A DNA stretch of 64,000 nt, taken from NCBI RefSeq assembly GCF_030539875.1, contig NZ_JAUNXI010000002.1:1-64000 (forward strand), read 5' to 3'. Position numbers and translations under genes: made by a program. The notes beneath the pieces were generated by a model that ran no database searches, was not told the DNA's origin, and saw only the letters and a list, made by a program, of their open reading frames with translations. The DNA comes from Methanobrevibacter sp. GTDB taxonomy: Archaea; Methanobacteriota; Methanobacteria; Methanobacteriales; Methanobacteriaceae. Positions 9,711 through 38,192 of this stretch are shown here, piece after piece (the first letter of the stretch is position 1; each line of letters starts with the position of its first letter).

Positions 9711-10472
9711 TTAATCACTCTTTACAATAGTTAAGGCAAATACTCCTGCGCCAAACCCATTATCAATATTTACAACTGCAATTCCTGGAGCGCATGACTG
9801 AAGCATTGCATCAAGTGCAACCCTTCCACCTTCGCCAACACCATATCCTACCGAAGTTGGAACCGCAATAACAGGAACATTTACAAGCCCTGCAACAACT
9901 GAAGGCAATGTTCCCTCCATCCCTGCACAAACAATAATTGCGCGAACGCTTTCTTCAAGCATATGTGCAATTTGAGGAAATAATCTGTGAATGCCTGCCA
10001 CTCCAACATCATATGAAGTGATGGCTTCACATCCTCCTTCTTCAACGATTACGCGGGCTTCTTCAGCAACATTAATATCTGAAGTGCCTGCAGTCATGAT
10101 GCCTATTTTTGCGATTGGCTCTTTTTTAACTATTTCCTTTCTAATAACTAAAATTTGAGCCTTTTTATTATAATCAAAAATAAAAGAATTATCGCCCAAA
10201 TCATTTAAAATTCTTTCATACTTCTCATTTGACAATTTAGTAATTATTAAATCATCATTATTAGATTGCATGTGTTTTTTAATAATTATGAGCAAATCAT
10301 CATAATCTTTGCTTAGTGAAAACACTGCCTCTGGAAAACCTGTCCTCTCTTTTCTATTGATATCAAATTTGACAACATCATCAATTTGCAAAATATTATC
10401 TGCATTGATTAATTTTTCTGCTTCATCAATATTAAGTTCTCCATCGACTAATCTTTTGAGAATATCTTTCAT
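9711..10472 (-). CDS. larB: LarB, nickel-pincer cofactor biosynthesis (pyridinium-3,5-biscarboxylic acid mononucleotide synthase)
   Basis: A 253-residue protein. The C-terminal half (about 120-250) is the PurE/AIR-carboxylase-like domain: KIGIMTAGTSD, VGVAGIHRL, VCAGMEGTLPSVVAG, VPTSVGYG. LarB carboxylates and hydrolyses nicotinic acid adenine dinucleotide in the first step of the nickel-pincer nucleotide made for lactate racemase-type enzymes. LarC, LarE and LarA are not in this window. It is divergent from hypF across a 56-base gap rich in TATA-like sequence, so both nickel genes share one promoter region. Confidence 0.92.
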   Translation of the reverse strand: MKDILKRLVDGELNIDEAEKLINADNILQIDDVVKFDINRKERTGFPEAVFSLSKDYDDLLIIIKKHMQSNNDDLIITKLSNEKYERILNDLGDNSFIFDYNKKAQILVIRKEIVKKEPIAKIGIMTAGTSDINVAEEARVIVEEGGCEAITSYDVGVAGIHRLFPQIAHMLEESVRAIIVCAGMEGTLPSVVAGLVNVPVIAVPTSVGYGVGEGGRVALDAMLQSCAPGIAVVNIDNGFGAGVFALTIVKSD

Positions 10473-10528
10473 AATATTATAATATAGAGGATAAAATTAT
10501 ATAAAATTTACTTACAATAATATAACTT

Positions 10529-12769
10529 ATGAATTCATTGAAGATTTTAACACAAGGAATAGTGCAAGGAGTGGGATTTAGGCCATATGTCTATAGATTG
10601 GCCAGCGAACTAAATCTCAAAGGATATGTTAGAAACCTCGGAAATGTTGTTGAAATCATTATTGAAGGTGAAAATGCCCAGTCATTTGTCGAAAGACTTC
10701 CAAAAGAACTGCCCCCAATAGCAAAAATCAATTCCATGAATGTGGAGGCTATTGAAAAGCATGATTATACTGATTTTGAAATAATTGAAAGCGGAGATTC
10801 CTATTCCGGAATTAGTGTAATACCTCCAGATATTGCAATATGTGATAAATGTCTTAGTGAAATAAGAAATCCTGAAGACAGACGTTATAAATATGCTTTT
10901 AATGCCTGTACCGACTGCGGACCAAGATTTACAGTAATTGAAAGTGTACCTTACGACAGGATAAGAACTTCAATGGATGAGTTTCCATTATGTGATGAGT
11001 GCTTAGCAGAATATGAGGAACCTTTAAACAGACGTTATCATGGAGAAGCAATATGCTGCAGCGAATGCGGACCTGAAATGGAACTATATGAAGGTATGCA
11101 CAAAATAAATACCGACAATCCTATAAAATCAGGTGCTCAAAAGCTGAAAGAAGGAAAAATATTGGCCATAAAAGGAATTGGCGGAACACACCTAGTTGTT
11201 GATGCCTATAACGATAAAGCCATAAAAGAACTGAGAAAACGCCTTAACCGCCCCAATCAGGCATTTGCCGTAATGTGCAGGGATTTGGAAAGTCTTCAAG
11301 ATTATGCTGAGTTAACCGAAAAGGAAATAGAAACCATCACTTCAAACAAAAGACCTATTGTTATTTTAAAGAAAAATAATGATTATGCATTTCCTGAAAG
11401 TTTATCACCGGGACTTCACAACATTGGAGTGATGCTCCCATACTCTCCGATGCACCATCTGCTATTTGATGAAGGAGACATTGATACTTATGTCATGACT
11501 TCGGCAAATACTCCTGGAGAACCAATGATGATTGCAAATGATGAGATTGTCAACGGAGTTAGCGATTATTCATTAGTTCATAACCGTCAAATTCTAAATA
11601 GATGCGACGATTCCGTTATCAGATTTAGAAACAATGAATTATCATTTATTAGAAGATCAAGAGGATATACTCCCGAACCATATACAATAAATTACGATGT
11701 AAATGATTTGAATGTGCTTGCCTTAGGCCCTGAACTTGATGTGACCTTTTCAGTTGCAAAAGACAATATCGTATATCCTTCTCAACACATCGGAAATACA
11801 AACAAACCGAAAACATTGGCTTTTTTAAAAGAAGCTATTGAAAATATGGAGAGAATAACCAAAATCAATGAATTTGACATGATTGCCTGTGATTTGCATC
11901 CCAATTTCTTTACAACAAGACTGGCTCATAATTTAGCTGAAAAATATGGTTGTGAAGTTCTTCAGGTGCAACACCATCATGCTCATTCTGTTGCTTTGGC
12001 CAATGACAGCGCAATAGAAGAAATGATTGTAATTGCTGCTGACGGAGTAGGTTATGGAAGTGACAAAACCAGCTGGGGAGGGGAAATTCTCTATACAAAT
12101 ATTAAAGACTTTGAAAGATTAGGACACCTGCAGCCTCAATTAATGCCCGGAGGAGATGTGGCTACAAGATATCCTGCCAGAATGCTTGCAAGTATTTTAA
12201 ATGATGAAGACCTAATTAAAAACTATTCAGATTACTTTAAATACGGAAATGTTGAAATAAAAAATATTTTCAAACAGATAGCTGCCGGAATTAATGTTGG
12301 CAAAACAACAAGTACCGGAAGAGTCCTTGATTCAATGGCAGTTGCTCTTGAAATATGCCATGAGCGAACTTACGAAGGAGAATGCTCAATGAAACTGGAA
12401 TCTGCAGCATATTACTCCACTAAAGATTTGGAAATTCCTATTGTTATTGAAAATGACACTCTGAATACCAGTGAAATCCTAAAAGAAGTTGTGAAGTTAT
12501 ATCAAAATGGTGAGAAAAAAGCAGACGTTGCAGCTGCAGGCCAAAATGCCATTGGAAAAGGATTAAGCGAACTTGCAATAAGTGCAGCAAATAAAAAAGG
12601 AATTAAAGAAATCGGAGCAACAGGAGGAGTATTTTACAACGAAGCCATTACAAACACTGTTAAAAATTCTATTGAAAATGAGGATTTTACATTTATCCAG
12701 CACAAAAATACATGTGCGGGAGACGGATCCGTATCTTTAGGCCAAGCAATTATTGCTAAAAAATTATAA
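10529..12769 (+). CDS. hypF: Carbamoyltransferase HypF, NiFe hydrogenase maturation
   Basis: A 746-residue cytoplasmic enzyme that makes the thiocarbamoyl group on HypE, the source of the cyanide ligands of NiFe hydrogenases. Domains in order: N-terminal acylphosphatase-like domain (QGIVQGVGFRPYVYRLA), two zinc fingers (CDKC...CTDC and CDEC...CSEC, about residues 105-185), a YrdC-like domain (about 200-380) and a Kae1-like carbamoyltransferase domain with HHHAHSVALAND. Length is normal. It serves the Frh hydrogenase at 34655-38151 and any others in the cell. hypC, hypD and hypE are not nearby. Confidence 0.96.
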   Translation: MNSLKILTQGIVQGVGFRPYVYRLASELNLKGYVRNLGNVVEIIIEGENAQSFVERLPKELPPIAKINSMNVEAIEKHDYTDFEIIESGDSYSGISVIPPDIAICDKCLSEIRNPEDRRYKYAFNACTDCGPRFTVIESVPYDRIRTSMDEFPLCDECLAEYEEPLNRRYHGEAICCSECGPEMELYEGMHKINTDNPIKSGAQKLKEGKILAIKGIGGTHLVVDAYNDKAIKELRKRLNRPNQAFAVMCRDLESLQDYAELTEKEIETITSNKRPIVILKKNNDYAFPESLSPGLHNIGVMLPYSPMHHLLFDEGDIDTYVMTSANTPGEPMMIANDEIVNGVSDYSLVHNRQILNRCDDSVIRFRNNELSFIRRSRGYTPEPYTINYDVNDLNVLALGPELDVTFSVAKDNIVYPSQHIGNTNKPKTLAFLKEAIENMERITKINEFDMIACDLHPNFFTTRLAHNLAEKYGCEVLQVQHHHAHSVALANDSAIEEMIVIAADGVGYGSDKTSWGGEILYTNIKDFERLGHLQPQLMPGGDVATRYPARMLASILNDEDLIKNYSDYFKYGNVEIKNIFKQIAAGINVGKTTSTGRVLDSMAVALEICHERTYEGECSMKLESAAYYSTKDLEIPIVIENDTLNTSEILKEVVKLYQNGEKKADVAAAGQNAIGKGLSELAISAANKKGIKEIGATGGVFYNEAITNTVKNSIENEDFTFIQHKNTCAGDGSVSLGQAIIAKKL

Positions 12770-12794
12770 AAAAGATGGTTTAAATAAAACCATC
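12765..12794 (-). terminator. Hairpin terminator after the ArsR-like regulator
   Basis: GATGGTTT (12774-12781) and AAACCATC (12787-12794) form an 8-bp stem with a 5-base loop. Read on the minus strand it is followed by a T-rich run at 12765-12773, so it fits termination of the regulator gene; it lies in the gap of the convergent pair hypF and the regulator. Confidence 0.55.
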
Positions 12795-12810
12795 AAATAA
12801 TGGCCAGTAA

Positions 12811-13386
12811 TTACCTATTTCTTAGAGTTCTCTCAAGAATATATTCCGCTCTTTCTTTAAGATTGCCATATAATCTTATTTGATTTTTCAACTCTTCAAT
12901 AGCTTCAAGTTGCCCATCATCTATTCTTTTTTCAATGTCTAATAATTTAGACCATTCATCACCTGACGGAAGCTGTAATGTATTAAGCATGTCGTCTGAC
13001 AAGTTAACATCAAAAGTATTTCTATTAATGGTAATGTGAATATTAACTTCGTTTTGCAAATCATAATATTTACGCGGACGACCCCTTACAATCTTTTTAT
13101 ATGAAGAATTTAATATCCCTATGTCTTCCATCGCTCGCAAATGAGCAATAATAGCTTTTTGACCAATAGCTAATTCATTTGAAATTTCACTAACAAACAT
13201 AGGTTCTTCCCTTAAAAGATTTATAATATCCCTTCTAGTCTTACAACCCATTACATCAAGGATGTCTTCTTTATCAATCCCTCCTTGTTGGTCATTATAG
13301 TTCCCTCTAATTTCTATACGGCCATTAGAAGAATTGACATTTCTATAACTTTTTTCATTTTTTTCAATGTCATTAATTCTGCTCAT
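12811..13386 (-). CDS. ArsR-like winged-helix transcriptional regulator, divergent from grpE
   Basis: A 191-residue regulator. Residues about 40-110 form an ArsR-type winged helix: DVMGCKTRRDIINLLREEPM, FVSEISNELAIGQKAIIAHLRAMEDIGIL, then a basic wing VRGRPRKYYDL. The C-terminal 70 residues are charged and helical and may dimerise. It is transcribed away from grpE-dnaK-dnaJ. Its TATA box (13412-13419 on the minus strand) is overlapped by one of two operator-like palindromes, so it probably represses itself and perhaps the chaperone genes, as the heat-shock regulators Phr and HSR1 do in other archaea (inference). The transcript is nearly leaderless. Confidence 0.85.
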   Translation of the reverse strand: MSRINDIEKNEKSYRNVNSSNGRIEIRGNYNDQQGGIDKEDILDVMGCKTRRDIINLLREEPMFVSEISNELAIGQKAIIAHLRAMEDIGILNSSYKKIVRGRPRKYYDLQNEVNIHITINRNTFDVNLSDDMLNTLQLPSGDEWSKLLDIEKRIDDGQLEAIEELKNQIRLYGNLKERAEYILERTLRNR

Positions 13387-13410
13387 AATTTATACTATTA
13401 TATCGAAACC

Positions 13411-13466
13411 TTTATATAACTTTTTGTTACTATAATAATGTAAGAGAAAGATAACTTTTGGTTACT
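13411..13466. promoter_or_regulatory. Two operator-like palindromes over the regulator promoter
   Basis: ATAACTTTTTGTTACT at 13416-13431 and ATAACTTTTGGTTACT at 13451-13466 differ by one base and are 35 bases apart. Each contains the palindrome TAAC-N5-GTTA. The first overlaps the TATA element TTATATAA (13412-13419) of the divergent regulator. This arrangement is that of an autoregulatory binding site. Confidence 0.6.
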
Positions 13467-13493
13467 TTAATATTTGGTTCAGAAAAACTTGAA

Positions 13494-13596
13494 GTAATAA
13501 CTCTCAGACAATGAACCATTTTCCTATATATCCATAAATTCCCAAAAACCAAAATTAAGTAATCAAACGTTCAAGTTCTCGAAGAAGAGTTATTAC
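13494..13596 (+). promoter_or_regulatory. grpE promoter and leader flanked by an 11-bp inverted repeat
   Basis: A TATA-like CTATATAT lies at 13524-13531, putting the grpE transcription start near 13553 and leaving a leader of about 80 nt. GTAATAACTCT (13494-13504) and its exact reverse complement AGAGTTATTAC (13586-13596) bracket this promoter; a second pair AACTTGAA (13486-13493) and TTCAAGTT (13570-13577) lies just outside/inside it. The ribosome binding site is AGGTG at 13624-13628. Confidence 0.5.
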
Positions 13597-13633
13597 AAAA
13601 GTTTTTCCAAAAACCTAAAAAAAAGGTGCAAAT

Positions 13634-14185
13634 ATGACTGACGAAAATAAAGGCGAAACTGAAGTTGAAGCTCAAGATATTCAAGAAAAATATGAAGAAC
13701 TTCTTGAAGAATTAACTCTTAAAGACGAAGAGTTAAATCAACTCAAAGAAAATCTTGAAAAGCAAGAAGCTGAAACTCAAGAATACATTTCACTTTCACA
13801 AAGACTTCAAGCAGATTTCGAAAACTTCAAAAAAATTACTGATAAAAGAAACAGCGAACTAATTAAGTTTGCAAATGAAGATATAATAAAAAAGTTTCTT
13901 GATTGCTATGAAGATTTCGCTAGAGCTTTGGAAATTGAAAATAATGAAGATTTAAGAGATGGTGTAGAACTTATCTATAATAAATTTAAAGACATTTTAA
14001 CAAAAGAAGGAATCGAAGAAATTCCTGCAAAAGGAGAAAAATTTGATTTGAACAAGCATGAAGCAATGATGGTTCAAAAGTCCGACGATGTTGAAAATGA
14101 CTATATTATAGAAGAGTTAATGAAAGGCTACATGTACAAAGATAAAGTCCTTAAATATTCAAAAGTTATTGTTTGTAAAAAATAA
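13634..14185 (+). CDS. grpE: GrpE, nucleotide exchange factor of DnaK
   Basis: A 183-residue protein with the GrpE layout: an acidic N-terminal tail, a long coiled coil at about residues 15-75 ([23 protein letters not shown]), and a C-terminal beta domain ([37 protein letters not shown]). It releases ADP from DnaK. It is the first gene of the chaperone operon grpE-dnaK-dnaJ, an operon many archaea lack and that methanogens are thought to have gained from bacteria. Confidence 0.95.
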
Positions 14186-21587: not shown

Positions 21588-21623
21588 AAAAAAAGAGATA
21601 AGAATAAAGGAAAAATCCTTTAT
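21588..21623 (-). terminator. Terminator hairpin of the second adhesin gene
   Basis: ATAAAGGA (21604-21611) and TCCTTTAT (21616-21623) form a perfect 8-bp stem with a 4-base loop. On the minus strand it is followed by a run of T at 21588-21594. The hairpin overlaps the stop codon. Confidence 0.65.
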
Positions 21624-24600
21624 CTTTTAATTGTAATTGTTTTTGATATAGTGCATCCGCCATAAGTCGATGTGACTGTATATTTACCTACTTTTAAATT
21701 TTTAATAGATAATGTGGCAATACCTTTACTGTTAGTTTTTACACTATATTTTTTACCTTTAATCTTAAAGACAACTTTTTTGCTCTTTAAGATTTTACCA
21801 TTCTTGTTCACCAATTTGACAGGGAATTTAATTGTTTTAGCTTTCTTTTTAACAACATTCTTAGCTATTAAAGTAGGTTTAAAAGTTATCTTGCTTAAAA
21901 CTTTAGTAGATTCATACTGAGCGGTTACTGTATAAGATCCAGCTTTTAGATTAATAGACTTATACGCCTTACCGGATTTATCTGTTTTAACCTTGTATGT
22001 TTTACCATTCACTTTAATAGTTACAATTTTGCCTGCACCAACATATTTACCGTCAATACCTTTAACACGGACAGTATATTTAATAGCATTTCCATAATAA
22101 ACCGGATTGTTTTTATATTGATAAATTGAAGGTTTATACTGAGCTATTAACTTAGCTTCACCACTTGATGATTCAAAGTTATCATTTTCAACAGCCTCTG
22201 CAAGCAATTTATAAGTACCATATGCAGGAACTTCAGCAACTAAAGTGGCTACGCCATTTTTATCAGTTTTTGCCTGACCGATATAAACGTATTTTACTTG
22301 GAACCTATAAAATTTAACTGTAATCCCAGGTATAGGATTTCCGAAGCCATCCTTTACAACAACAACAAATTTTCCATCAGAATTTGGAACTGCAGTTACA
22401 TCCTTATAGATAATATTAGAAATGCCCTTATCAATAGTTAAAATAGAATTGAACTGTTTAGTTAAATAATCCTCTTTAACTGCAACAGCAACAATAGAAT
22501 AATCGGCAGGAGTGTAAGAATCATCGAATTTATATCTTAATGTTGCTACACCATCTTTAGAAATTGCACTGCCGATTTCCTCATCCTCGTTGATATAAAA
22601 TTTAACCAGTACCCCATCAACACCAACATTCAAAACAATATCTGCAGTGCCCAAATAATTAAGAGTTATATCTGGAAGGATTCCCTCAAAAATATAGACA
22701 TAATTACCACTGACAACATTGTTATTTGTATTATTAATAGCTTTATCACCTATACCTTTTTCGGAATTTAAATAATTATCAATTAATGTGTTGTTGACAG
22801 CCAAATCACTAACAATAACCGCATAGCCTTTTGTAGAAGTTATATTATTATCGGAAATGATGTTACTGGAAGATTTGGATTTGAGATAAATGCCTGCCAA
22901 TCCAATACCAAATGAATCATAAACCGGATAGGTTATTTCCTCACCAGTTATATTATTGATCACCATATTTTTCACAATAGTATTATTTAAAGCATTTGAA
23001 AGTCCAATGCCGAATGCCTGTTTGGCTTTAATATCAAATATATTGTTATTTATAGTATTGCCATTTGAATTGAACGCTTCAAGCCCATAAACAATATCGG
23101 AATCCAATTTGAAAATATTTGATTTAACAATAGAATCATGAGAGATTTCTAAATTAATACCATATGAGAAATTATTAGATTTGGCATTGACAGTATTTCC
23201 GCTAAGAGTGGTATTTTGTGATGCATAACCAACTACCAAACCCTGAACAAAATAAGTTCCTTCTAAAACAATATTATTGTTAATGAACTTGTTATTAGTT
23301 GCACCTTTTCCTTCAGGAATAGGATGACCAGTATTGTGACCCAGTACCCCCATACCATAAATATAGGTATCATTAGCTTTTATATAAACCTCATTGTATG
23401 AAAAAGTATTATTGTGACTATTGAAATATAAATCTATGCCTACAGCAGAATTTGTAGACAAATTACTGTGGCCAGCAGAACTTGAATTAAATTCAACAGA
23501 TGTCTTATTAAGTTTGGAAGTTACAGTTACTTTATTTCTAGAAACATTACATTCAGAGGAATAAACCATTAAAATACCATAAGTCCTATACACTTCGGTT
23601 AAAACATGATTTCCAGCAATTGTATTGCCGCTTGTACAAACAGAATTGCCATCTACACATGAAGACCCATCCACACAAGACGAACCGTCAACACAAGTAG
23701 ATCCATCTACACAAGAAGAACCGTCAATACAAGTGGAATTACCATCAACGCAATGACTGCCTTCAAAAGCATGTTCAACTCCTGTTCCGACAGTATAGAT
23801 AGTATTATTAATAAAATTACAATTTTCAACACTTATAGCAAGTAATGTGTAAGTTAAATAATTACCATTAGAATAAAGTTTGTTGTTTAAAACATCAATA
23901 TCACTAGATTCTACAGCATAAATCGCATATGCTGCATTTGGATCTGTTACGTTAATGTTACAATTAGAAATTGTTGCGCCATAGGTATTGTATGCAAGAA
24001 TTCCCCATGCATTTATTCTTTCTGAATCTTTATTTTTAATTGTTAAATTTTCAATCCAAACACCGTCAGAAACCCTGAATGTTGTATTGTAAAAAATCGG
24101 GTTTTTTCCAGTTATTTTAACTGCAGAATTAATGTATAATACTCCCATATTCACAAAGGTGCCTTCGAAGTACAAAATATCTCCATTTTTGATTAAAGTC
24201 TTTAAAGTGCCCCCTACCTCAAAATAATCACTATAATTTTCAGGAGTGACTGTGTAGGTTGTTCCATCGAAAATGTATTTTGGTTTTGACGGGTCAAAAG
24301 AACCTTCAGGAGTTGCAATGAGCTTACCTTTCGGAATTGTATTATTTTCAATAGTCCATGTAGTGGATGCATTAATTTCCCTTGCATCAATTGCATATTT
24401 ATTTTCTGTGGAAATATTATTATCAACAATTGTTAAATTTCCAGGCATTCTTCTAGCACTTTCCTTGTTAATTAGGACGCCAATACCATTGCTGCAGGAA
24501 ATATTATTACCGGATACAACCAAACCATAATGTTCGCCTTTCCAGAAGATACCTGCACCGGAAGTGGTAGTTATATTATTGTTTTTGATAGAAATATTGC

Positions 24601-25732
24601 TTCCACTAGGTTGAATACCATATCCGGAGGATACAACTTCAATTTTGTTATTTTCAATGATTACATTATTAACCGCATAAATTGCACCATAACCATTAAT
24701 TATTTTTGCATTTTCAATGGAATTATTTCTTATTATTGAATTTGATGAACCTGCAATTGCATACTGTCCCCCAACCTCAATATTAGGATGGTTAAAATCT
24801 GCACCGGTAATATTGATAATTCTATTATTAACTATATAGTTAGGTGAAATAATTGAAGAAGATGAAATACCCATATATGCGCCAATTACTTTATTAGAGT
24901 CTATTCTATTGTATCCTCCCATTACTTGAATACCATAACCCCATGATGTTGGCAATACATTATATTTTACGGTGTTGTTATAAATTACATTATAATTAGA
25001 AACACCTCCGTCTAAAGGACCTCCTTCATAGCTAGATAAATATATTCCATTTGCATCATCACATTCAATATGATTGTTTGCAATATAATTATGATGGGCT
25101 CCACTAAGAACAACAGGTGAAGTTGACCTAGTTCCCTGACCTGCTCCGTAATTAATGCCGTAAGCACTAAATAAATTATTTGTTACATTATTGTAATTTG
25201 CATTATTAGCAATACAGATAGCGTAGGAAGACCTGCCAGTATTGTTAATAAAACAGTTTTTTACAGTACAGTTATTTACCCCGTTTAAAAAAATTCCATA
25301 ACTTTCATCTGCAGTATTAGCAATTTTTAAACCAACAATGGAACTTCCGGCAGCTCCATTATAAAATGTAAAAACACAATTTTGCATTGGTTTTGAACCG
25401 GAATAAACAATATTTAAAGATTTATTAAAATTAAATTTATTTCCTTTCCAATCTCCGGTGAAATTAATAGTGTCTCCCGCCTTAACATTAGGAGAAATTA
25501 AATTTCCATTTTTATTAAAATACGTAGAATAGCTAGCCGCATTTATCTCATGCGTAGTAGCTTCATTTGAATTACCCTCAGAAAGCGGAATGCTTTCTTC
25601 AGATAACGAATCATCTAAAATAGTTTCATCACTACTTAAAGTATCATTTACATCCTCACTAGCACAAACAGTGGCCATTGACAGGAAAAAAAGTAGCAAT
25701 AAAACCAATGATACCTTAGTTTTCTTAATCAT
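21620..25732 (-). CDS. Adhesin-like surface protein with beta-helix, cysteine ladder and Ig-like domains
   Basis: A secreted protein of 1370 residues. Signal peptide at residues 1-24 (basic MIKKTK, then LLLLFFLSMATVCA). An acidic Ser-rich stretch follows, then two beta-helix regions (about 85-470 and 520-1020), each introduced by a similar YSxYF...GG/GNLxxxxxxGDxxxFxG start. Residues 661-699 hold seven cysteines at spacings of 6 or 7 in a CVDGSS-type repeat, which is unusual. From about residue 1025 there are four Ig-like domains ending in a lysine-rich one (KGKKYSVKTNSKGIATLSIK). No C-terminal anchor is seen. It is a neighbour of a similar adhesin and probably separately transcribed, since each gene has its own hairpin. 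Confidence 0.92.
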   Translation of the reverse strand: MIKKTKVSLVLLLLFFLSMATVCASEDVNDTLSSDETILDDSLSEESIPLSEGNSNEATTHEINAASYSTYFNKNGNLISPNVKAGDTINFTGDWKGNKFNFNKSLNIVYSGSKPMQNCVFTFYNGAAGSSIVGLKIANTADESYGIFLNGVNNCTVKNCFINNTGRSSYAICIANNANYNNVTNNLFSAYGINYGAGQGTRSTSPVVLSGAHHNYIANNHIECDDANGIYLSSYEGGPLDGGVSNYNVIYNNTVKYNVLPTSWGYGIQVMGGYNRIDSNKVIGAYMGISSSSIISPNYIVNNRIINITGADFNHPNIEVGGQYAIAGSSNSIIRNNSIENAKIINGYGAIYAVNNVIIENNKIEVVSSGYGIQPSGSNISIKNNNITTTSGAGIFWKGEHYGLVVSGNNISCSNGIGVLINKESARRMPGNLTIVDNNISTENKYAIDAREINASTTWTIENNTIPKGKLIATPEGSFDPSKPKYIFDGTTYTVTPENYSDYFEVGGTLKTLIKNGDILYFEGTFVNMGVLYINSAVKITGKNPIFYNTTFRVSDGVWIENLTIKNKDSERINAWGILAYNTYGATISNCNINVTDPNAAYAIYAVESSDIDVLNNKLYSNGNYLTYTLLAISVENCNFINNTIYTVGTGVEHAFEGSHCVDGNSTCIDGSSCVDGSTCVDGSSCVDGSSCVDGNSVCTSGNTIAGNHVLTEVYRTYGILMVYSSECNVSRNKVTVTSKLNKTSVEFNSSSAGHSNLSTNSAVGIDLYFNSHNNTFSYNEVYIKANDTYIYGMGVLGHNTGHPIPEGKGATNNKFINNNIVLEGTYFVQGLVVGYASQNTTLSGNTVNAKSNNFSYGINLEISHDSIVKSNIFKLDSDIVYGLEAFNSNGNTINNNIFDIKAKQAFGIGLSNALNNTIVKNMVINNITGEEITYPVYDSFGIGLAGIYLKSKSSSNIISDNNITSTKGYAVIVSDLAVNNTLIDNYLNSEKGIGDKAINNTNNNVVSGNYVYIFEGILPDITLNYLGTADIVLNVGVDGVLVKFYINEDEEIGSAISKDGVATLRYKFDDSYTPADYSIVAVAVKEDYLTKQFNSILTIDKGISNIIYKDVTAVPNSDGKFVVVVKDGFGNPIPGITVKFYRFQVKYVYIGQAKTDKNGVATLVAEVPAYGTYKLLAEAVENDNFESSSGEAKLIAQYKPSIYQYKNNPVYYGNAIKYTVRVKGIDGKYVGAGKIVTIKVNGKTYKVKTDKSGKAYKSINLKAGSYTVTAQYESTKVLSKITFKPTLIAKNVVKKKAKTIKFPVKLVNKNGKILKSKKVVFKIKGKKYSVKTNSKGIATLSIKNLKVGKYTVTSTYGGCTISKTITIKR
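23636..23752 (-). repeat. Seven-copy 18-21 bp repeat coding for a cysteine ladder
   Basis: Minus-strand units of 18 bases (21 at the two ends) code for C-[VI]-D-G-[SN]-[ST], giving Cys at residues 661, 668, 674, 680, 686, 692 and 699 of the adhesin. Third codon positions vary among units, so the protein sequence rather than the DNA is being held constant. Confidence 0.9.
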
Positions 25733-25847: not shown

Positions 25848-25882
25848 ATAAAAAAAAGTTGATGATTAAATTAATAATCATC
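25848..25882 (-). terminator. Terminator hairpin of the CobN-like gene
   Basis: GATGATTA (25861-25868) and TAATCATC (25875-25882) form a perfect 8-bp stem containing the stop codon; on the minus strand AAC and then a T-run at 25848-25857 follow. Confidence 0.7.
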
Positions 25883-28800
25883 ATAGTCTTCGTCTTTCTG
25901 GTTTCTAACATATCCAACAAAGAAGATTGCAATTAAAATAATAATAGCAATTACAACAAATATCGGCATGCTAGATTCTGCTGAACTTGAAGATTTAGAA
26001 GTAGACTTCTGAGACAACTCATATGCAGCAGCACCTGAGTCTCCTGAAGAAGCTCCTGAACCCTGAGATTGAGAAACTGATTTTGCATTACCTTTCTCAG
26101 ACATATCCTGTCCAGCAGATGTTTTACCTGATTCACTATTTGATTGTTTTCTATCATTTGTTCCATTAACTAGTTCATGGGCATTTTTATTCCCATCATC
26201 AACATCAGAATTTTCATTCTTATACAATGGATCAGTATTAGTGGCCTGAGCCAATATCTCTGCAAATTTTTGTTTTAAATCAGGAGATAGTGAACTTGCT
26301 TGAATAATTTTCATATTGAATTCAAGGTTTTTACAGGTGTGGTGACAACATGCAACACCATACTTAATAACCTGATTCATGTATTCATTAGCAATCTTTT
26401 CAAGCATTTTGCTATCTGCATCCCAAACACCTTGAGTTCCCAAATAGAACATGTGCGCAAGGGAAGACTGTAAACCAACAGAAGTACTTGAACTGGTGAC
26501 ACTGCTGGCCAAACCTAAAAGAGTATCCGTCATTTGATTACCTAACTCTTTATTTAGCTTATTATTACTAATAGTTAAAATACCGAAAGTGTTTTGCATT
26601 CTTGCCGCAATCCAGTTCATACCCGCAGCTGTTCCTTTAAGAGGTCCAAGATATTTTGGATTTAAGAGAGTTGTTCTGATTTCAAACTCCATCTGTTCCT
26701 CATATGTTCTAGGAACATAACGATTTTTATCCCTAATATCTACAAATGCAGTATCAGGTCTGCTTAAACCTTCTCTTTCTCTTAAAATTGAAGCTGCATT
26801 ATACAAACCACCAAACCAATCATAATAATCATCGGAATCTAAAATTCTCCATGTACTATCAAGGTTTTGTGTAATCAATTCAGTTTTTGTAAGGAGATAT
26901 TTGAAAGTATCTTTTTGTTTATTGATAACAATATTATCCCCATCAATAGTCCATGCAAATGAAACAGCATCAAGATACCTATTCATTCCAACTACATTAA
27001 CAGTGGATTTATTCCAATCAGCAGTATTCGGAATAAGAGTGCTCATTCCGGTTCCTTCAAGAATGTTGCCCGGAAGACCGAATAATCTGTCAAGTGTAGG
27101 ATTTTCATTGTAATGTTTTATAACATAATTATCCTTTTCACTTTCACCGGAATCCGCTGCCAATCTAGTAGCGGTTACCATCCACCTAATCCAATCTTTA
27201 TTATTGGTAACTAAACTTGCAAATACGTCAATTCTAGGCCTTTTGACAATAGAACCATCATTTAATCGGATAGTCAAATTTTCCAATGGAATTAGTTTAA
27301 CACCTGAAACTTTACCGTTTTCAGCCCACTCAGGCATACATCCCAAGAAGTATAGGAATTCTGCAACACCAATTCCTTCAGTTCTTGATATTTCAGTACC
27401 CCATAAAATCAATGCAGTCATTTCAGGCCATTTACCATGTTTTTCATAATAATTGGCAAGCAGCAAATCAACAATTTTAACTGCAGACTCATATGCTGCA
27501 TGTGACGGCATTCTTGAAGGGTCTGAAGCATATCCGTTAGCACCTGTTGGAATTGAATCACCATATGCCGGGTCGGCAAACAAACCTGCTTTGACATATC
27601 CTCCGGATAATGCAGTAAGAATTGCGTTCCATTCATTATTATTTTGAATTTTGACAATTACTTCTTCTGCATACTTCAGGGAAGAATATAATGAACCGGT
27701 TTTATTTATTCCCAATAGTGAAGCAAATTTATCGGCAGAAGACCCGTTAACTAAAGCGTCAGTATAATATTTCAAAAATGATTCAATAGAATGACGTTCA
27801 TTTATGTATTTTAAATCACCCTGAACATCTTTATAGAAATCTTTACCCTTCAAATTCGGATATAAGAACTCCATTATCTGATTATAAATTTTAGTTTGAG
27901 AAGATACAATAGTGATAACTTCTTCGGATAATTCTTCACCGGTTAAGACTTTACCTAAAGTATGTAAACCATATGTCATTAAGTCATCAGCCATATTTTC
28001 AAGATAGAGATGTAATTCATCTACCCATTTATCAAATGATTCGCCTTTAGACATACTTCTAAAACCTAATGACGGAGCTAATTTGAGAATCTTTTCTTTA
28101 TATACTTCGGCATTAGAAGTAACATTAAGTTTTACCTGATCTTTATAATAGGTAATATAGTTATTTAAAAGAGTATAATTACCATGTAATCCAGAAGATA
28201 CAATAGCAGGAGTCATGTGTGTAATGACCATTGATGCAATTCTATCTCTTGCAACCATAGCCTCACCAGGATTAGAAACAATATACGGATATATTGTTGG
28301 GATTTTAGTTAATTCAAATGCCCAGTCACCAGCACTTACACCAAGATTTTTACCAGGCAACCATTCCAATGTTCCGTGAGTTCCCATATTGATGACTGCA
28401 TTAGCTTTTGCAACTTTCTCCAGCCATTCATAAAATGCAACATATTGTTGGTGAGGAGGCAATTTCCTATCATGGAAATTTTGAATAACTTCATTTAAAT
28501 CTGCTTCCTCCCATCCTCTACTAGGCTGGTAAGTGATGAAAACATTGCCGAACCAAACTCCAGGAATAACTAAATATTGTTGATTTTTATCTTTATAAAC
28601 CATTGATTTGCCTAAACCTGCTCCCCATTGAGTAACCATTTCTTCATATAACTCCTCAGGAAGGTCAGCAGTTAACTTAATAAAATCATCCATTGAAATT
28701 AATTGATTATGTTTGACTAATTCATTCCAGTTGTTTTTAACATACTTATTAAGCAATCCTCCAGCCCAAGAACCTTTATTCCCATTATCAAATAACAGTT

Positions 28801-30676
28801 CAGTGAACTCTTTAATACTCATCATTTTACTGATATTGCCAATGGAATAACCTTCTTCATGCAATTTAAGAAGTAAATCATAAGTACTTTGAATTACATC
28901 CAGATATGATGCACCAATTTCAGCCTTACCAGGCGGATAATTATAAAGAACAATAGCCACTACTTTTTCAGAATTATTCAACTCCTTTAAGTCAGCCCAT
29001 TTACTGCTGAGCTGAACCATTTTATCAATACCCGGTTGAATTACATGAGTTTTACCCTCCTCATCAAGATAAGATAAAATAACAGGACCGAACACTCCTT
29101 CAAAACTTGGATAGGTTACAGAATATGTCCATTCTACCTGAGGACCGAGTTCACTTTCATGACTATATTTGGAGATTTCATTTACACCTTTAAGAATTTC
29201 CAAATCAATATCAGATAGATCTTTTTCAGCAGACCCGTTAGCATAACTTAAAGACCAACTATATAATGAAGTAATAGCTGATATCCCAACTTTTGAAACA
29301 TTTTTAATTTTTTTCAATATTGAAGACATTGAAGGATTAGTAGAAAATTTAAAAACATTAAATGCAGGTCTACCAACCTTTTCATAACCTCTAATTAAAG
29401 AATCAACTACATCTCCACCACAATAGTAAGTAGCAATAGCTATGAACTTCTTGTCGGGACTAAATTTATTAATGAATTTATTTTCAAACTGAACAAATAA
29501 ATTAGTAGGATCTAAAATATTTGCAAACCAATCTTGATAGTTTTGAATCATCCAGTTTAAACTCCCAATACCGTCGCAATTATACCCCGGATTTGTACGA
29601 ATCCACTGGTTAATCAGTTTACCTTCAGGATATATTGTGAAAATACCTATATCAGGATGATAAAATCCACATTCAGGACCCATCTGAGGTGAATTAGAAT
29701 CATTGAGAGTCGGATTTGCATACTTTGATGGATTAATTAAATAATATATATATTTAAGATAGTTTTTCATATTATGCTGCAAAATATCTGAGGAATTGAT
29801 TTTTTCAGCCTGGAAATAAGAACCTACATATGTATTTTCAATAGTATGATAAGTATTGTTTTTCGGATCTGCACCAACAATGTGCAATCCTGTTGAATCT
29901 AAAATACCTCCATTATAAACACCAAAAGTATAAGCGACATTATATCTTGCATTAGCTGGAGAGACTGAAAGCAATTTCTTCAATTTTTCAGCAGTGAATG
30001 TGGCATATGCACCTTCAGCAAACATGTCGATATGGATAAACTGAGCATGTTCAGCCAGCCACTCTCTAGAGGTATCATACTTACCAGTATCGATATAAGC
30101 GATTCTTTTAGACATGTTCATCAAAACATTTATCTTTTCCTTGTGTGACTTATAATCAACCAGCAGCAGTATATCCGGAATGAAATCGAATACTCCATTT
30201 AAAGTTCCAGAGTTTTTAGAAAAGTCCAATATTTTAGATTTTTGCGGCTCATAATCAGCATAGCTAACTTCAACATAATATTTTATTGATTTTAAATTTT
30301 TAATAGAAACAAATCCTTTCGAATCGGTTTTATGTGTTGAAATTAGCTTATGATTAGAATCATATAGCTTAACTGTTGCTCCAGCTAAGTTATAGCCATC
30401 CTCATCCCAACTATTAGCAGTTTCATTATAATGGTGTTTAACATTAACATTGATTACATTCTTAGTTGAAGACAATACTGATCTGTTAACATGAGAACTT
30501 TGAACATCTGAAATAGCCGAACTTACCTGAACTTCATCAATATCGCAAGGAGCCGATATGACCTCATCAGCCGTTTCGTTTGTTTCGGCAAAAGCGAAAT
30601 TTAAAGAAAATAAAAGTAAGCCCACAGCAAACAATAGAACTAATAGCTTATTATCAATTTTTTTCGTGATTTTCAC
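25871..30676 (-). CDS. Secreted, membrane-anchored CobN / magnesium-chelatase-H family protein
   Basis: A 1601-residue protein of the large chelatase subunit family (CobN, BchH/ChlH), whose cytoplasmic members insert cobalt or magnesium into tetrapyrroles. Here residues 1-30 are a signal peptide, about 73-160 an Ig-like Cna-B-type domain (AGATVKLYDSNHKLIS, TDSKGFVSI), about 170-1490 the chelatase body with GTHGTLEWLPGK from residue 765, YPYIVSNPGEAMVARDR and LILWGTEISRTEGIG, then CCHHTC at 1443-1448, a Ser/Gly linker and a membrane helix at about 1570-1590. It is therefore outside the cell, with no ATP supply or CobST partners at hand. Metal or tetrapyrrole capture is a plausible role (inference). 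The listed GTG start lies inside the GAGGTG ribosome binding site; ATC or ACG 3-6 bases later may be used. Confidence 0.9.
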   Translation of the reverse strand: MKITKKIDNKLLVLLFAVGLLLFSLNFAFAETNETADEVISAPCDIDEVQVSSAISDVQSSHVNRSVLSSTKNVINVNVKHHYNETANSWDEDGYNLAGATVKLYDSNHKLISTHKTDSKGFVSIKNLKSIKYYVEVSYADYEPQKSKILDFSKNSGTLNGVFDFIPDILLLVDYKSHKEKINVLMNMSKRIAYIDTGKYDTSREWLAEHAQFIHIDMFAEGAYATFTAEKLKKLLSVSPANARYNVAYTFGVYNGGILDSTGLHIVGADPKNNTYHTIENTYVGSYFQAEKINSSDILQHNMKNYLKYIYYLINPSKYANPTLNDSNSPQMGPECGFYHPDIGIFTIYPEGKLINQWIRTNPGYNCDGIGSLNWMIQNYQDWFANILDPTNLFVQFENKFINKFSPDKKFIAIATYYCGGDVVDSLIRGYEKVGRPAFNVFKFSTNPSMSSILKKIKNVSKVGISAITSLYSWSLSYANGSAEKDLSDIDLEILKGVNEISKYSHESELGPQVEWTYSVTYPSFEGVFGPVILSYLDEEGKTHVIQPGIDKMVQLSSKWADLKELNNSEKVVAIVLYNYPPGKAEIGASYLDVIQSTYDLLLKLHEEGYSIGNISKMMSIKEFTELLFDNGNKGSWAGGLLNKYVKNNWNELVKHNQLISMDDFIKLTADLPEELYEEMVTQWGAGLGKSMVYKDKNQQYLVIPGVWFGNVFITYQPSRGWEEADLNEVIQNFHDRKLPPHQQYVAFYEWLEKVAKANAVINMGTHGTLEWLPGKNLGVSAGDWAFELTKIPTIYPYIVSNPGEAMVARDRIASMVITHMTPAIVSSGLHGNYTLLNNYITYYKDQVKLNVTSNAEVYKEKILKLAPSLGFRSMSKGESFDKWVDELHLYLENMADDLMTYGLHTLGKVLTGEELSEEVITIVSSQTKIYNQIMEFLYPNLKGKDFYKDVQGDLKYINERHSIESFLKYYTDALVNGSSADKFASLLGINKTGSLYSSLKYAEEVIVKIQNNNEWNAILTALSGGYVKAGLFADPAYGDSIPTGANGYASDPSRMPSHAAYESAVKIVDLLLANYYEKHGKWPEMTALILWGTEISRTEGIGVAEFLYFLGCMPEWAENGKVSGVKLIPLENLTIRLNDGSIVKRPRIDVFASLVTNNKDWIRWMVTATRLAADSGESEKDNYVIKHYNENPTLDRLFGLPGNILEGTGMSTLIPNTADWNKSTVNVVGMNRYLDAVSFAWTIDGDNIVINKQKDTFKYLLTKTELITQNLDSTWRILDSDDYYDWFGGLYNAASILREREGLSRPDTAFVDIRDKNRYVPRTYEEQMEFEIRTTLLNPKYLGPLKGTAAGMNWIAARMQNTFGILTISNNKLNKELGNQMTDTLLGLASSVTSSSTSVGLQSSLAHMFYLGTQGVWDADSKMLEKIANEYMNQVIKYGVACCHHTCKNLEFNMKIIQASSLSPDLKQKFAEILAQATNTDPLYKNENSDVDDGNKNAHELVNGTNDRKQSNSESGKTSAGQDMSEKGNAKSVSQSQGSGASSGDSGAAAYELSQKSTSKSSSSAESSMPIFVVIAIIILIAIFFVGYVRNQKDEDYDDY

Positions 30677-30869
30677 CTCTTTTTACATTTAATCACCATA
30701 GCAATGTAAAAATACCTTACTATAGTTTTAAGTTTAATTTGAAAATATATAAAGTTTATTAAAATTAAAATAACTTTAAAACCAATCATACAACTGTTAA
30801 CACAAATAAGATACATTTATAAAATATAACTACCTAATAAAATGTACCAATATTAAAGAGGTGACATTA
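30677..30869. promoter_or_regulatory. Shared promoter region of the CobN-like and DUF1002 genes
   Basis: A 190-base AT-rich gap between two divergent secreted-protein genes. A plus-strand TATA-like TTTATAAAAT lies at 30814-30823, about 45 bases before the AGGTG (30859-30863) of the DUF1002 gene. On the minus strand TTTATATATT-like sequence near 30745-30760 could serve the CobN-like gene. No clear operator repeat is visible. Confidence 0.4.
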
Positions 30870-31715
30870 ATGGGTAAGATTAACATTAAAATGATTATTT
30901 TATCAATAGCCATTATAGGAATGCTTATCCCTGCAGGATTTGCAGCTAATGATAAACAGGCCGTAATAACCTATGGTGAAACTACATACAAAAATGCAAA
31001 TTACAAGAATGCCGTTGATACATTCTTTGAAAATCAGGCACATATGGATTTAAAAGGAGTGAATTCAAAAATAATTACTGCAAAGGAAGTAAATAAAATC
31101 TCAAGTACAATAACCGGAAAGCAGTATAACTCAAATCAGATTTTCTCCTCAGCATTAGTTAATTTAAACGACAATGGAAACCTTAAGGTTACTGTAGATA
31201 AATCCAAAATCACTACAATAACCGGAAATATGTACTTATCTGCATTGAAATCCTCTGGAATCACAAGCGGACATGTTTACGTAACCAGCCCAGTTACAGC
31301 CACCGGCGAATCTGCATTGACCGGCATTATGAATTCCTATGAAGTTGTCACAGAAGTTGAAATACCTGATACTGTTAAAAAGGCAGCAAACAATGAAATT
31401 TACACACAGGCAGAAATTGTAAAAGAATCCAATGTTAGCGCTGATGACTTATCTAACTTAGTTGACGATGTTAAAGAAAAAGTTCAGGAGGAAAACATTA
31501 CCGATCAGCCAACTATCGTTAATATAATCAACAACTACACAATTAAATACAATATTAACATTACCGACAGTGACATTGAAAACCTTGCAGAAAGTATTGT
31601 ACAGCTACAAAATGCTCAGGAAGACATCGAAAATTACCAGACCGAACTGAATAATGCTTTAAACAGTACAAATGCTAACTTAAATACAGGATTTTTAGAA
31701 GGACTATTTAACTAA
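30870..31715 (+). CDS. Secreted DUF1002 protein
   Basis: A 281-residue protein counted from ATG 30870; the AGGTGA at 30859-30864 is its ribosome binding site, so the GTG at 30861 is not the start. Residues 1-25 are a signal peptide (INIKMIILSIAIIGMLIPAGFAA). The rest matches DUF1002, a family of secreted proteins mainly of Firmicutes, with the conserved YGETTYKNANYKNAV, the segment around TGKQYNSNQIFSSALV and VYVTSPVTATGESALTG. Function is unknown. It is divergent from the secreted CobN-like gene, which suggests a shared role at the cell surface. Confidence 0.85.
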   Translation: MGKINIKMIILSIAIIGMLIPAGFAANDKQAVITYGETTYKNANYKNAVDTFFENQAHMDLKGVNSKIITAKEVNKISSTITGKQYNSNQIFSSALVNLNDNGNLKVTVDKSKITTITGNMYLSALKSSGITSGHVYVTSPVTATGESALTGIMNSYEVVTEVEIPDTVKKAANNEIYTQAEIVKESNVSADDLSNLVDDVKEKVQEENITDQPTIVNIINNYTIKYNINITDSDIENLAESIVQLQNAQEDIENYQTELNNALNSTNANLNTGFLEGLFN

Positions 31716-34654: not shown

Positions 34655-35506
34655 TTAATAAATAGCTGGGATTTTAACTCCCATTTTTGCTCTTCTTTCA
34701 CGTTCTGCATTGTTTTTGTCTTTTTTATCTTTAGCTAATTTTTCAAGCAAAGGAAGACCAGGTTTTACTTCATCGATTGGTTTTGTTTCAATTAAACCAG
34801 CAGAAACTGCAGCTTTAAATATGTTGTTACCATCGTCAGTTCTGGTTAAAACAGTAGACCATCCGTCTGGAGATCCTACAGAACCGGTGGATACATCAGC
34901 CCATTCAGCAACATAGTCATTACAAATGTTACATCCTGCTTGTTCGTAACCGTGAGTTTCTTTAATAGCTAAACCAGAGTCTTCGCCGTCTTTGGTTAAC
35001 CAGAATTTTCCTTTACCGATGTCCATTTTAGTAGCATCGGTTAAGCTGTCAAATCCTAATTTTGCAGTAGCAAAGGTATCAAGAGAAGCCATAGGGAAGT
35101 TTTCCATACAGTAGATTCCGACGATTAATTTAATTTTATCGGCGACAAATCTAGTGAATGGGTAAGCTTGTGCTTTTCTTAAACCTTGGACCTGACATGG
35201 TGTTGCTACAACTCCAAGTTTTTCAAGACCGTATTGACGGGTTGCTTCTTTTAAAGCAGATAAAGTAGGAGACATTGAATATTTAGTTCCAGCAGCAGCA
35301 ATTACTTCATCAGAAGAAGTTACTACAGTAGGAATAGGTCTCCAATCATCATCAGGAGTTCCAGCTACAACTGCACCTTCGATTATTCCCTCATCAAGTG
35401 CATAACAGAGCAATGCAGATACAATTCCTCCGTCTTGTGATACATCTAGAATTTTTTTCTCAGTAGATCTAGCTGAGATTGCTTCTTTATAAGTACCTAA
35501 TGGCAT
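34655..35506 (-). CDS. frhB: F420-reducing hydrogenase beta subunit (FrhB)
   Basis: A 283-residue FAD and 4Fe-4S protein that passes electrons from the hydrogenase core to coenzyme F420. It has the FrhB/FdhB family marks: [48 protein letters not shown], the cysteines in [19 protein letters not shown] and [12 protein letters not shown]. The start is ATG 35506 ([11 protein letters not shown]) because AGGAGG at 35515-35520 is only one base from the ATG at 35512. Last gene of frhADGB. Confidence 0.97.
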
Positions 35507-35517
35507 ATTCATTCCTC

Positions 35518-36351
35518 CTAAAGTCCTGTTTCCTTTTTGATTCTTCCTTCAGGTAACCATGACCTTGGACACATCATGTAACAAGATCCGCATTTGATAC
35601 ATCTGTCTTTATCACAGCTAGGTCTACCTTCTGCGAAGCCCATTGCTCTAGTTGGACAAGCAAGAGCGCAAGTTCCACAACCAGTACATAATCCTTGTCT
35701 AATAACATTGGTTAATACGTCACAACCGCATCCTTTATCACATGCAGCCCAATCCATTGCCGGTTTTAAGTAGTCTAAGTCACCTTCACATAATGCAACA
35801 ACAGCTTTTGCAATCATTTCAGGAGCTACAGGACAACCTGGAAGTGCAAGGTCAACTTTAACTAATGAATTAATTGGTAAGAAAGATTCATGTTTAGGTT
35901 GAGCTTGTTGTCCACCGCGAGAGTATGTGGTGAAACAACCGGTAATCGCACAAGATCCGAATGCTGCGATTAAACCGGATTTTTTCCTAGCTTCTAAAAG
36001 TTCGTGTACACTGTGTTCATCTTGTAAACAAACTGATCCTTCAATTAAACATAAGTCCATTTCAGGCATTTCTTCAGCAAAGGTTCCGTGAATCCATTTA
36101 TCAACTAAAGTTTGTCCGTATACGATGTCAACCATATCTGTTAAAACTGTGGATAGGATGTCATAATTTTCGGTTAAAGACATTGCATCCCCAGTACAAC
36201 CACTTAAGTGTATGTAACCAATACGTGGTTTTGATGAAGCTGCTTTAGGTTCTTCTGCAGGTGCAGGAACAACTTCTTCAACTTTTTCCTCTACTTTTGG
36301 AGCTTTAGGTTCGGATGAACCACCAAAAGCCTTTTTTAATTTATCAAACAT
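35518..36351 (-). CDS. frhG: F420-reducing hydrogenase gamma (small) subunit (FrhG)
   Basis: A 277-residue iron-sulfur subunit. The proximal-cluster cysteines sit in [18 protein letters not shown] and LPGCPVAPE; a cysteine-rich CDKGCGCD segment and two 4Fe-4S motifs [12 protein letters not shown] and [12 protein letters not shown] follow. Residues 1-42 form a low-complexity Lys/Glu/Pro tail. The ATG overlaps the frhD stop codon, which indicates translational coupling. Confidence 0.97.
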
Positions 36352-36920
36352 TATTTTACCCCAATTTCATTTAAAATAATATCAATAGCTTCAGGAATTG
36401 CCTTTTCAACAGATTCAGATAACCCTACTTCAACATCAGGTGTTGGAATACATTCGGGTTTACAACCAACAATTACGACTTCACATTTTTCAGCGATTTT
36501 CTGAAGAGGTTCTTCAACAGTCATACCATGAGGATTATCATATTTGCCCACCTGCATAGCATTAGGGTCAAATACACCTACTGTGCCGGGTTCAGCATTG
36601 GATTCAACTACATCAATAACAATTAATTTTTTCCAGTCATATTCATTATACAAAGGGAAGAAATTCATTGGTGCAGCAGTTCCCCCATCAATAAACTGAA
36701 CTCCATCCGGTAAAGTTAAACCATTAAATTTTCCTTTAATAATGTTTAGAACATCACCATCAAATTCTTCTTCAACATACGAAGTAACTGCCGGATCATA
36801 ATAATCATTTTTATCATTAAAGTATTTCTGTAAAAGATTAATTAAAATTGGACCGAAACCGTCATCCTTAAATAAGATATTTCCGCATCCAATAACTATT
36901 ATGTCCGAATCATAAGGCAT
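36351..36920 (-). CDS. frhD: F420-hydrogenase maturation protease (FrhD)
   Basis: A 189-residue endopeptidase of the HyaD/HycI family that removes the C-terminal peptide of FrhA after nickel insertion. [14 protein letters not shown] at the N-terminus and [18 protein letters not shown] carry the conserved acidic nickel-sensing residues. It lies between frhA and frhG as is usual for methanogen frh operons, 16 bases after frhA. Confidence 0.96.
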
Positions 36921-36936
36921 TATTTATCCTCCACAA

Positions 36937-38151
36937 TTATATTCTCACCATTTCATTTTTAAGAATGGATTTATCTTCATCATCAACAACCATTACGTGA
37001 GTAGCACATGATAAACAAGGGTCGTATGCTCTGATAACGTGTGGTCCGTACTCATGATGGAATCCTTCTATTGCAGGACCCATGGTTGGAATGTTCCAGG
37101 TAGTTGGTACAATAGCAGAGTAGAATTTGGTTTTGCCGTCAACGACTTTAGCCATGTGAACGTTTGTTCCTCTAGGACCTTCGATTACACCGAAACCAAG
37201 TTCACCAGTTCCTCTTTTATCATAACTTACATTAGCTGGAGCAGCAGGATCAATTGCATCTAAAGCTTCCATACATGCATCATAGTTTAATAACATTTCA
37301 TCAGCACGAGCTACGTGTTGTGCGTTTACACCTTTACCTTTGAATCCGGCGAATTTTTCCATTCTTGCCCTAGGACCGGTTTCAACATGCTCACCATTAA
37401 GTAATGGAATTGTAGTACAAGCTTTTTTACCAATCTCAGGATCGTCATACCAAGCTTCAGGCAAACATTCGGAGAAAATATCCATATCAAATTCATTTAC
37501 ACCATAAGATGCATCTGTTGCCAATAACGGTCTGTCAACTACACCTAAATCATCAGGTAAACCTTTTTCTACAACACAGTTTTTGATTAATTCAACGTGT
37601 TCTTCGAGTTTTGGTCTAAGCGCAGTCATTCTTTCAATTAATCTTTCTTTAGTGAAAGGAGTGATGTTTCTAGCCATTCCCCCAACTCTAACATCTGATG
37701 GGTGGATACCTTCACCAGCAATCATATCCACAACATATTGTACTGTTTTTCTTACTTCACTTACACTGTCAACAGCAGTGGTGAATAAGTTATCAGGTAC
37801 AAAATCAGGTGCGATTAAGAAGTGGTGAATAGCTGCACTGTTAATACCATGTGCTGCTAAAGTAGCTCTTCTTAACAATTTAGCAGTTTTAGGAATTTCG
37901 ATTCCTAATGCCATGTCCATTGCTTCTGCAGAAGCCAAAGTGTGTGGAATCGGACAAACACCACAAATTCTTTGACATAAAACAGGAGCAGATTCAGGAG
38001 CTTTGTCAAGAACCATCTTTTCTAAACCCCTAACAGGAGTTATACTTAAATACATACCTTTTGTAACTATCCCCTTGTCATCTACTTCCATGACTAATTC
38101 GGCATGGCCCTCTTGACGAGATGTAGGAGATATAACAACTCTATCTTTCAA
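36937..38151 (-). CDS. frhA: F420-reducing hydrogenase alpha (large) subunit (FrhA)
   Basis: A 404-residue NiFe active-site subunit that splits H2 to supply reduced F420 for methanogenesis. Nickel ligands are in [10 protein letters not shown] and DPCLSCATH; 19 further residues follow the latter and are the peptide FrhD should remove. The start is read as TTG 38151 ([16 protein letters not shown]), six bases after GAGGTG; the upstream GTG at 38160 is part of that ribosome binding site. Confidence 0.97.
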
Positions 38152-38192
38152 ATATGTCACCTCAATTATAGAAATTAGAAACTAACAAATGT

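Follow-up and report, generated by a model that had tools for sequence, protein, structure and literature searches.

A chelatase-family protein of Methanobrevibacter, predicted to lie outside the cell, groups with HmuS among exported class I chelatases

RESULTS

Sequence comparison gives good support for placing a predicted protein of Methanobrevibacter sp. in a clade of class I chelatases that are exported and anchored in the membrane, among them HmuS, the periplasmic heme dechelatase of Bacteroides thetaiotaomicron. Its gene lies in a 64,000-nucleotide stretch (assembly GCF_030539875.1, contig NZ_JAUNXI010000002.1, positions 1 to 64,000), which we call the window. The open reading frame (ORF) occupies positions 25871 to 30676 on the minus strand, as do all features of the gene given below. 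It starts with GTG downstream of a Shine-Dalgarno-like GAGGTGA, is intact with zero internal stops, and encodes a 1,601-residue protein of the CobN/ChlH superfamily, which we assign to type A of the HmuS-containing clade. We read the N terminus, MKITKKIDNKLLVLLFAVGLLLFSLNFAFA followed by ET, as a Sec-type signal peptide (residues 1 to 30, ending AFA/ET; 30587 to 30676), and the N-terminal hydropathy is 3.0, versus about 1.0 for cytoplasmic homologues. Residues 91 to 151 (30224 to 30406) form a probable Ig-like domain with weak CarboxypepD_reg, SpaA, and SdrD_B matches (E values of 3e-6 to 6e-5), of which SpaA exceeds its cut-off. The CobN/Mg-chelatase core follows at residues 301 to 1365 (26582 to 29776), where the CobN-Mg_chel family (PF02514) matches with an E value of 5.2e-184 and 614 bits; the Foldseek result given below agrees. 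A Ser/Gly-rich stalk (25970 to 26224) carries a juxtamembrane AYELS motif, in which Glu1553 is conserved to at least 90%, and leads to a single predicted transmembrane (TM) helix at about residues 1570 to 1590 (25907 to 25969) and a short charged tail. Orthologues across Methanobrevibacter have the same architecture. The protein is thus predicted to be a membrane-anchored chelatase-family protein on the outside of the cell, as the preliminary description had proposed, and it does not appear to share the cytoplasmic location of CobN.

The phylogeny was based on an alignment of 65 sequences, including HmuS, ChlH, and CobN, whose letters came from structure-search output. The exported members formed one clade, with a FastTree support of 1.0 and an ultrafast bootstrap of 100 in a 23-taxon IQ-TREE analysis. 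This clade held type A, a second Methanobrevibacter type that we call type B, other archaeal types, sequences of Nitrospirota/Deltaproteobacteria type, and HmuS, so that the exported class is present in both archaea and bacteria. Outside it were CobN and ChlH, as well as three archaeal proteins that have neither a signal peptide nor a TM helix. The type A clade, which included members of other families in the order, had supports of 0.998 and 99, and the branching of HmuS within the exported clade had supports of 35 to 63. The main groups were unchanged in the best tree, calculated without supports, of a full-taxon IQ-TREE run. When a profile of 19 exported members was compared with the PDB, HmuS ranked first with 771 bits, followed by ChlH (751) and CobN (727); a single-sequence search with the window protein placed ChlH slightly above HmuS. 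A structure model built from 23 distant sequences had a mean pLDDT of 58, adequate for the fold but not for active-site geometry, and the top Foldseek match of this low-confidence model was HmuS (9d26; E value of 1e-39). The NCBIfam CobN equivalogs scored 268 to 485 against cut-offs of 822 to 1926 (the best, 484.5 bits against 1619), and the BchH equivalog scored 413.7 bits against a cut-off of 829.

The core retains GTHGTLEWLPGK at residues 765 to 776 (28349 to 28384) and ACCHHTC at residues 1442 to 1448 (26333 to 26353), and the preliminary description was right that conserved core motifs had been kept. His767, in the GTHG of the first motif, aligns with the catalytic His538 of HmuS, and an H538A substitution abolished HmuS turnover (PMC12583661). 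His767 was invariant in 19 exported members, as were Glu771, Glu805, Asp1280, and Asp1282. CCHHTC had been singled out as an addition peculiar to this protein, but a Cys motif at that place turned out to be class-wide: nearly all exported relatives and HmuS have ACCHHTC, ACCDCSC, ACCDHTC, or SCSGFVC (the HmuS version) there. Cys1443 was invariant and Cys1448 at least 90% conserved among the exported members, and the motif was absent from the cytoplasmic CobN and ChlH sequences in the 65-sequence alignment. We note separately that in three exported CobN paralogues of other genomes (loci L131, L138 at 9873 to 14129, and L142), either the catalytic His or the motif of domain V has been lost, which suggests that these paralogues are non-enzymatic.

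HmuS (PDB 9d26 and 9p4s; BtuS1/2 in Bacteroides fragilis) shares with the window protein the exported, anchored class I chelatase fold, the GTHG catalytic His, the position of the C-terminal Cys motif, and, at the level of the class, linkage to hmuT-U-V-type genes. The window protein differs in having an extra Ig-like domain and Ser stalk, and its lineage differs in having no HmuY or HmuR and no adjacent module. Met79 of HmuS is replaced by Phe (Val in the profile alignment) and His254 by Ser, and His1209, within LSLDHxxEFMGG, corresponds to Asp1283 in LDSDDYYDWFGG (26807 to 26842), a place where CobN also has Asp. The Met-rich insertion of about 120 residues in HmuS contrasts with an 89-residue spacer containing one Met. 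The absence of Met79, His254, His1209, and the Met-rich insert rules out that the window protein is HmuS itself, and because these heme ligands, the insert, and His1209 are not conserved, heme may not be the substrate, a point that counts against the reading we prefer below. As judged from these alignments, the active site has the residues for carrying out metal chemistry on a macrocycle, and the protein lies outside the HmuS family as defined.

The gene is no isolated oddity. PF02514 genes occurred in 56 of 60 Methanobrevibacter genomes and in 98 of the 115 genomes of our phylum sample. The paralogue count that had been suggested as a check gave exactly two PF02514 genes in the genome, and the second is also predicted to be exported: type B, a 1,704-residue protein on contig C12, has a signal peptide and a C-terminal TM helix, and its close relatives are found in Methanobrevibacter, many from rumen and gut samples. 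Directly downstream of the window gene on the same strand is a 1,370-residue beta-helix/Big_1 surface protein (21620 to 25732, minus strand), a possible operon partner, which is 36 to 73% identical across neighborhoods of the genus. A secreted DUF1002 protein, encoded divergently upstream (30861 to 31715, plus strand), is a neighbor in most genomes of the genus examined. One other genome has two tandem type A genes (L055, 2382 to 7235 and 11437 to 16371), and a separate beta-helix protein gene follows each of them. The window also contains a coenzyme F420-reducing hydrogenase cluster at 34655 to 38160 (FrhB-type subunit, small Fe-S subunit, maturation protease, and large subunit). That the downstream surface protein adjoins the gene across the genus would fit a catalytically idle scaffold or adhesin partner, as would some distant paralogues without catalytic motifs (X_L131 and X_L142). 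We consider this very unlikely, since every type A orthologue examined retains GTHG, both Glu residues, and the domain V motif Asp residues.

Near the likely transcription start of the window gene is a TAGTAA-N12-TTGCTA dyad (30699 to 30722, minus strand), and a similar inverted repeat is present at the promoter of the paralogue (G000:C12:23602-23630), a weak lead. The TAGTAA/TTRCTA pattern, which was derived from the two chelatase promoters themselves, has no more than four occurrences in the genome, including these two promoters. The third is a tRNA promoter at which the dyad is not conserved and the fourth lies inside an ORF. A link to an iron-sulfur regulon was dropped. The dyad may tentatively be regarded as a shared operator, a common repressor site for both chelatase genes.

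Two groups of better-known relatives, CobN and ChlH/BchH, work with ATPase partners. CobN has the same PF02514 core, GxHG His, and LDSDDYY motif as the window protein but is cytoplasmic, has no signal peptide or TM helix, and requires the CobS/CobT ATPase. ChlH/BchH has the same core and fold but is cytoplasmic, acts with ChlI/ChlD, and has no C-terminal CCxxxC. A PF01078 search of the Methanobrevibacter genome found no CobST or ChlID partners; its five matches were LonB, an McrB-like protein, MCM, replication factor C, and an AAA ATPase. Of the three non-exported archaeal CobN-like genes, those at L130 and L134 adjoin a gene for a cobaltochelatase subunit in which AAA+ and VWA parts are fused (TIGR02442). 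Genes for cobalt-type transport are adjacent at L134 and L139. Metal insertion is the reaction of CobN and ChlH, and the Asp at the His1209 position is CobN-like, so a forward chelatase might work outside the cell, for example by inactivating or sequestering free porphyrin or a toxic metal. The missing ATPase partner and the fact that the closest characterized exported relative removes metal make this highly improbable.

The exported class is linked instead to a three-gene module. The type B gene is followed by genes for DUF2162, a MotA/TolQ/ExbB protein, and DUF2149, which is the order of hmuT-U-V. The hmu operon of Bacteroidota is annotated as HmuY, TonB receptor, CobN, hypothetical, MotA/TolQ/ExbB, and DUF2149 (PMC10434189), and HmuT of Bacteroides may be a DUF2162 protein. 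In two genomes of another genus (L152 and L161), a type A gene is directly upstream of the same three genes. No such module adjoins the window gene, but its genome has four DUF2162/ExbB/DUF2149 sets, and a complete module was present away from the chelatase gene in all eight genomes with type A only. Of the four sets, one is at the type B locus, one stands alone on contig C3, one on C2 accompanies a secreted protein with two FmdE domains, and one on C1 accompanies an ABC transporter and a beta-helix protein. A module tree put the solo C3 set with type B-linked sets of other species and not with type A sets, so that pairing it with type A by phylogeny is not supported; this and the lack of a module beside the window gene count against the reading we prefer below. 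Among the 115 genomes, strong DUF2162 matches (E value below 1e-50) occurred in 95 of 98 with PF02514 and in 3 of 17 without (Fisher P of about 1e-12, ignoring relatedness); modules without any CobN-like gene in those three genomes also count against it.

Conserved residues of the module are as expected of an ion-driven stator. Asp26 in the TM segment of DUF2149 (NLVDAMLV) was kept in 47 of 47 sequences, and in the ExbB-like protein, Thr143 (GT143) was present in 61 of 61 and Thr172 in 98%. We take these Asp and Thr residues to be equivalent to functional residues of Escherichia coli ExbD and ExbB. On the chelatase side, 33 of 38 type A-like proteins, as selected by a crude signal/TM filter, have a Y[ED][VILM] motif in the juxtamembrane position ahead of the TM helix. 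This motif is also present in several further surface proteins whose genes adjoin the module, was absent from all 49 unclassified signal-plus-TM ORFs of the same loci, and is a candidate docking site.

Other gene associations of the module were also seen. In the C2 set (L098, 9904 to 12753 and 7536 to 9248; about 105 kb), a small secreted protein and the DUF2162/ExbB/DUF2149 module lie downstream of a secreted 949-residue protein, which has two FmdE-type matches and a TM helix at its C terminus; a homologue of this large protein adjoins the CobN-like gene in Methanothermobacter-like genomes. In the C1 set (L099, 5521 to 12965; about 122 kb), the DUF2162-like, ExbB, and DUF2149 genes have the beta-helix surface protein on one side and, on the other, a metal-type ABC transporter together with an FmdE protein. 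At another locus (L149; G131:C1, 978 to 995 kb), a CobN-like gene with several stops and a split nicotianamine synthase (NAS) gene adjoin an intact module, so the system appears to be decaying there. The window protein might instead release metal from a metallophore of the nicotianamine type and not from a tetrapyrrole. This idea is favored by a one-strand row of NAS, an FmdE-domain surface protein, a CobN-like protein, and the module in Methanothermobacter-like genomes (L144), by a similar row without the FmdE protein in G118 (L137), and by an NAS gene on contig C13 of the genome studied here. We think this quite unlikely: the NAS-linked CobN-like proteins belong to subclades other than that of the window protein, the fold is built for macrocycles, and NAS occurs in 10 of 17 genomes without PF02514, with no clear co-occurrence. 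An association of NAS with CobN-like genes was accordingly set aside as weak, being limited to adjacency in some genomes.

DISCUSSION

A surface location for such a protein is already on record. In 2010, BchH of Methanobrevibacter ruminantium (mru2047) was described as having N- and C-terminal TM helices and was chosen as a surface peptide-vaccine target (PMC2812497). Its locus number is next to those of the adhesin-like mru2048/2049, and it is probably the orthologue of the window gene, judging by description and gene order. In the parts of that report available to us, no function was proposed, and antisera to four adhesin-like proteins were said to bind cells, with no such statement for BchH (PMC2812497). 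CobN-like genes also lie with ExbB/ExbD genes in the cobN-exbB-exbD-tonB cluster of Geobacter lovleyi, which has no CobST (PMC3403914), and in Pseudomonas aeruginosa PA1922-1925 (PMC4542158). These clusters differ from the archaeal loci in having TonB receptors and an outer membrane, and because of these the energy module there is assigned to the receptor. The HmuS report observed that Methanobacteriota proteins annotated as CobN cluster apart with unclear function, and it left the role of HmuT open (PMC12583661). In the papers that we searched, we did not find the combination of one exported clade, linkage to the module in organisms that have no outer membrane, and a missing ATPase.

We prefer the reading, to which we give about an even chance, that the protein acts at the surface as a (de)chelatase, stripping tetrapyrroles, other metal complexes, or metallophores of their metal with energy from the ExbB/DUF2149 stator. 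A metal-loaded tetrapyrrole or other metal complex would reach the cell and enter the cleft at the surface, where His767 and Asp/Glu side chains would protonate the ring and take the metal. A stator driven by the membrane potential (an ExbB-like channel with ExbD-like DUF2149, together with DUF2162) would supply force or ions in place of the AAA+ ATPase; in this lineage the module, encoded elsewhere, would be used in trans. The freed ion would be imported by separate, ordinary metal transporters, and none adjoins the window gene. Removal of iron from heme by HmuS was demonstrated in 2025. The enzyme worked in vitro with NADH in the absence of a stator (PMC12583661), which makes energy coupling the least certain step of this chain. 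The authors of a Porphyromonas gingivalis study left an effect of HmuTUV on HmuS activity possible (PMC13227078).

To our knowledge, these archaea have no outer membrane. The archaeal module therefore cannot be there only for powering a TonB receptor, which is why we give coupling to the chelatase more weight than it has in the HmuS report. A wider proposal, tentative and to our minds somewhat improbable as a whole, is that an extracytoplasmic chelatase class swapped the AAA+ ATPase for an ion-gradient ExbB/DUF2149 stator acting on the chelatase through the juxtamembrane motif. HmuU/HmuV of Bacteroides would thus power HmuS in addition to the TonB receptor, and Methanobrevibacter would use two such enzymes at its surface to mine tetrapyrroles for metals.

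The protein might also be a receptor that binds metallotetrapyrroles or cobamides and passes them intact, metal included, to an importer. The head and neck of HmuS bind heme away from the catalytic cleft (PMC12583661), transfer of heme from HmuS to HmuTUV has been proposed in P. gingivalis (PMC13227078), and the large surface-anchored design and beta-helix neighbor would suit a receptor. It is nevertheless unlikely, as the invariance of the cleft residues, with the catalytic His among them, goes beyond the requirements of a pure binder, no dedicated importer adjoins the gene, and the head/neck heme ligands are not retained.

There are several leads to the metal and substrate. Two CobN-like BtuS proteins of Methanosarcina barkeri change with the iron source (PMC10846266), Pseudomonas PA1923 responds to zinc depletion (PMC4542158), and the Methanothermobacter-like loci include NAS. 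The Methanobacteriales have been described as devoid of heme proteins (PMC3087415), with some catalase-type exceptions (PMC8351635), so that heme would be mainly a metal source and not a cofactor. A role in handling metals or tetrapyrroles, as the preliminary description had it, remains the best explanation; its suggestion that the protein feeds F430 or corrinoid supply found no support, since genes for corrinoid or F430 synthesis do not lie near the gene and the closest characterized relative removes metal rather than supplying tetrapyrrole (PMC12583661). A CbiX-type class II chelatase encoded in the same genome can do cytoplasmic metal insertion.

Methanogens without an outer membrane or TonB receptor thus carry an exported chelatase together with HmuT-U-V-type genes, which makes the role of the module testable: with neither structure present, its expected target is either the chelatase or transport across the inner membrane. 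If the surface (de)chelatase reading is true, gut methanogens would harvest iron, nickel, or cobalt, each of which methanogenesis requires, from the tetrapyrroles of hosts, plants, or bacteria. The surface protein that they would use for this is of a type that has already been considered for vaccines against methanogens.
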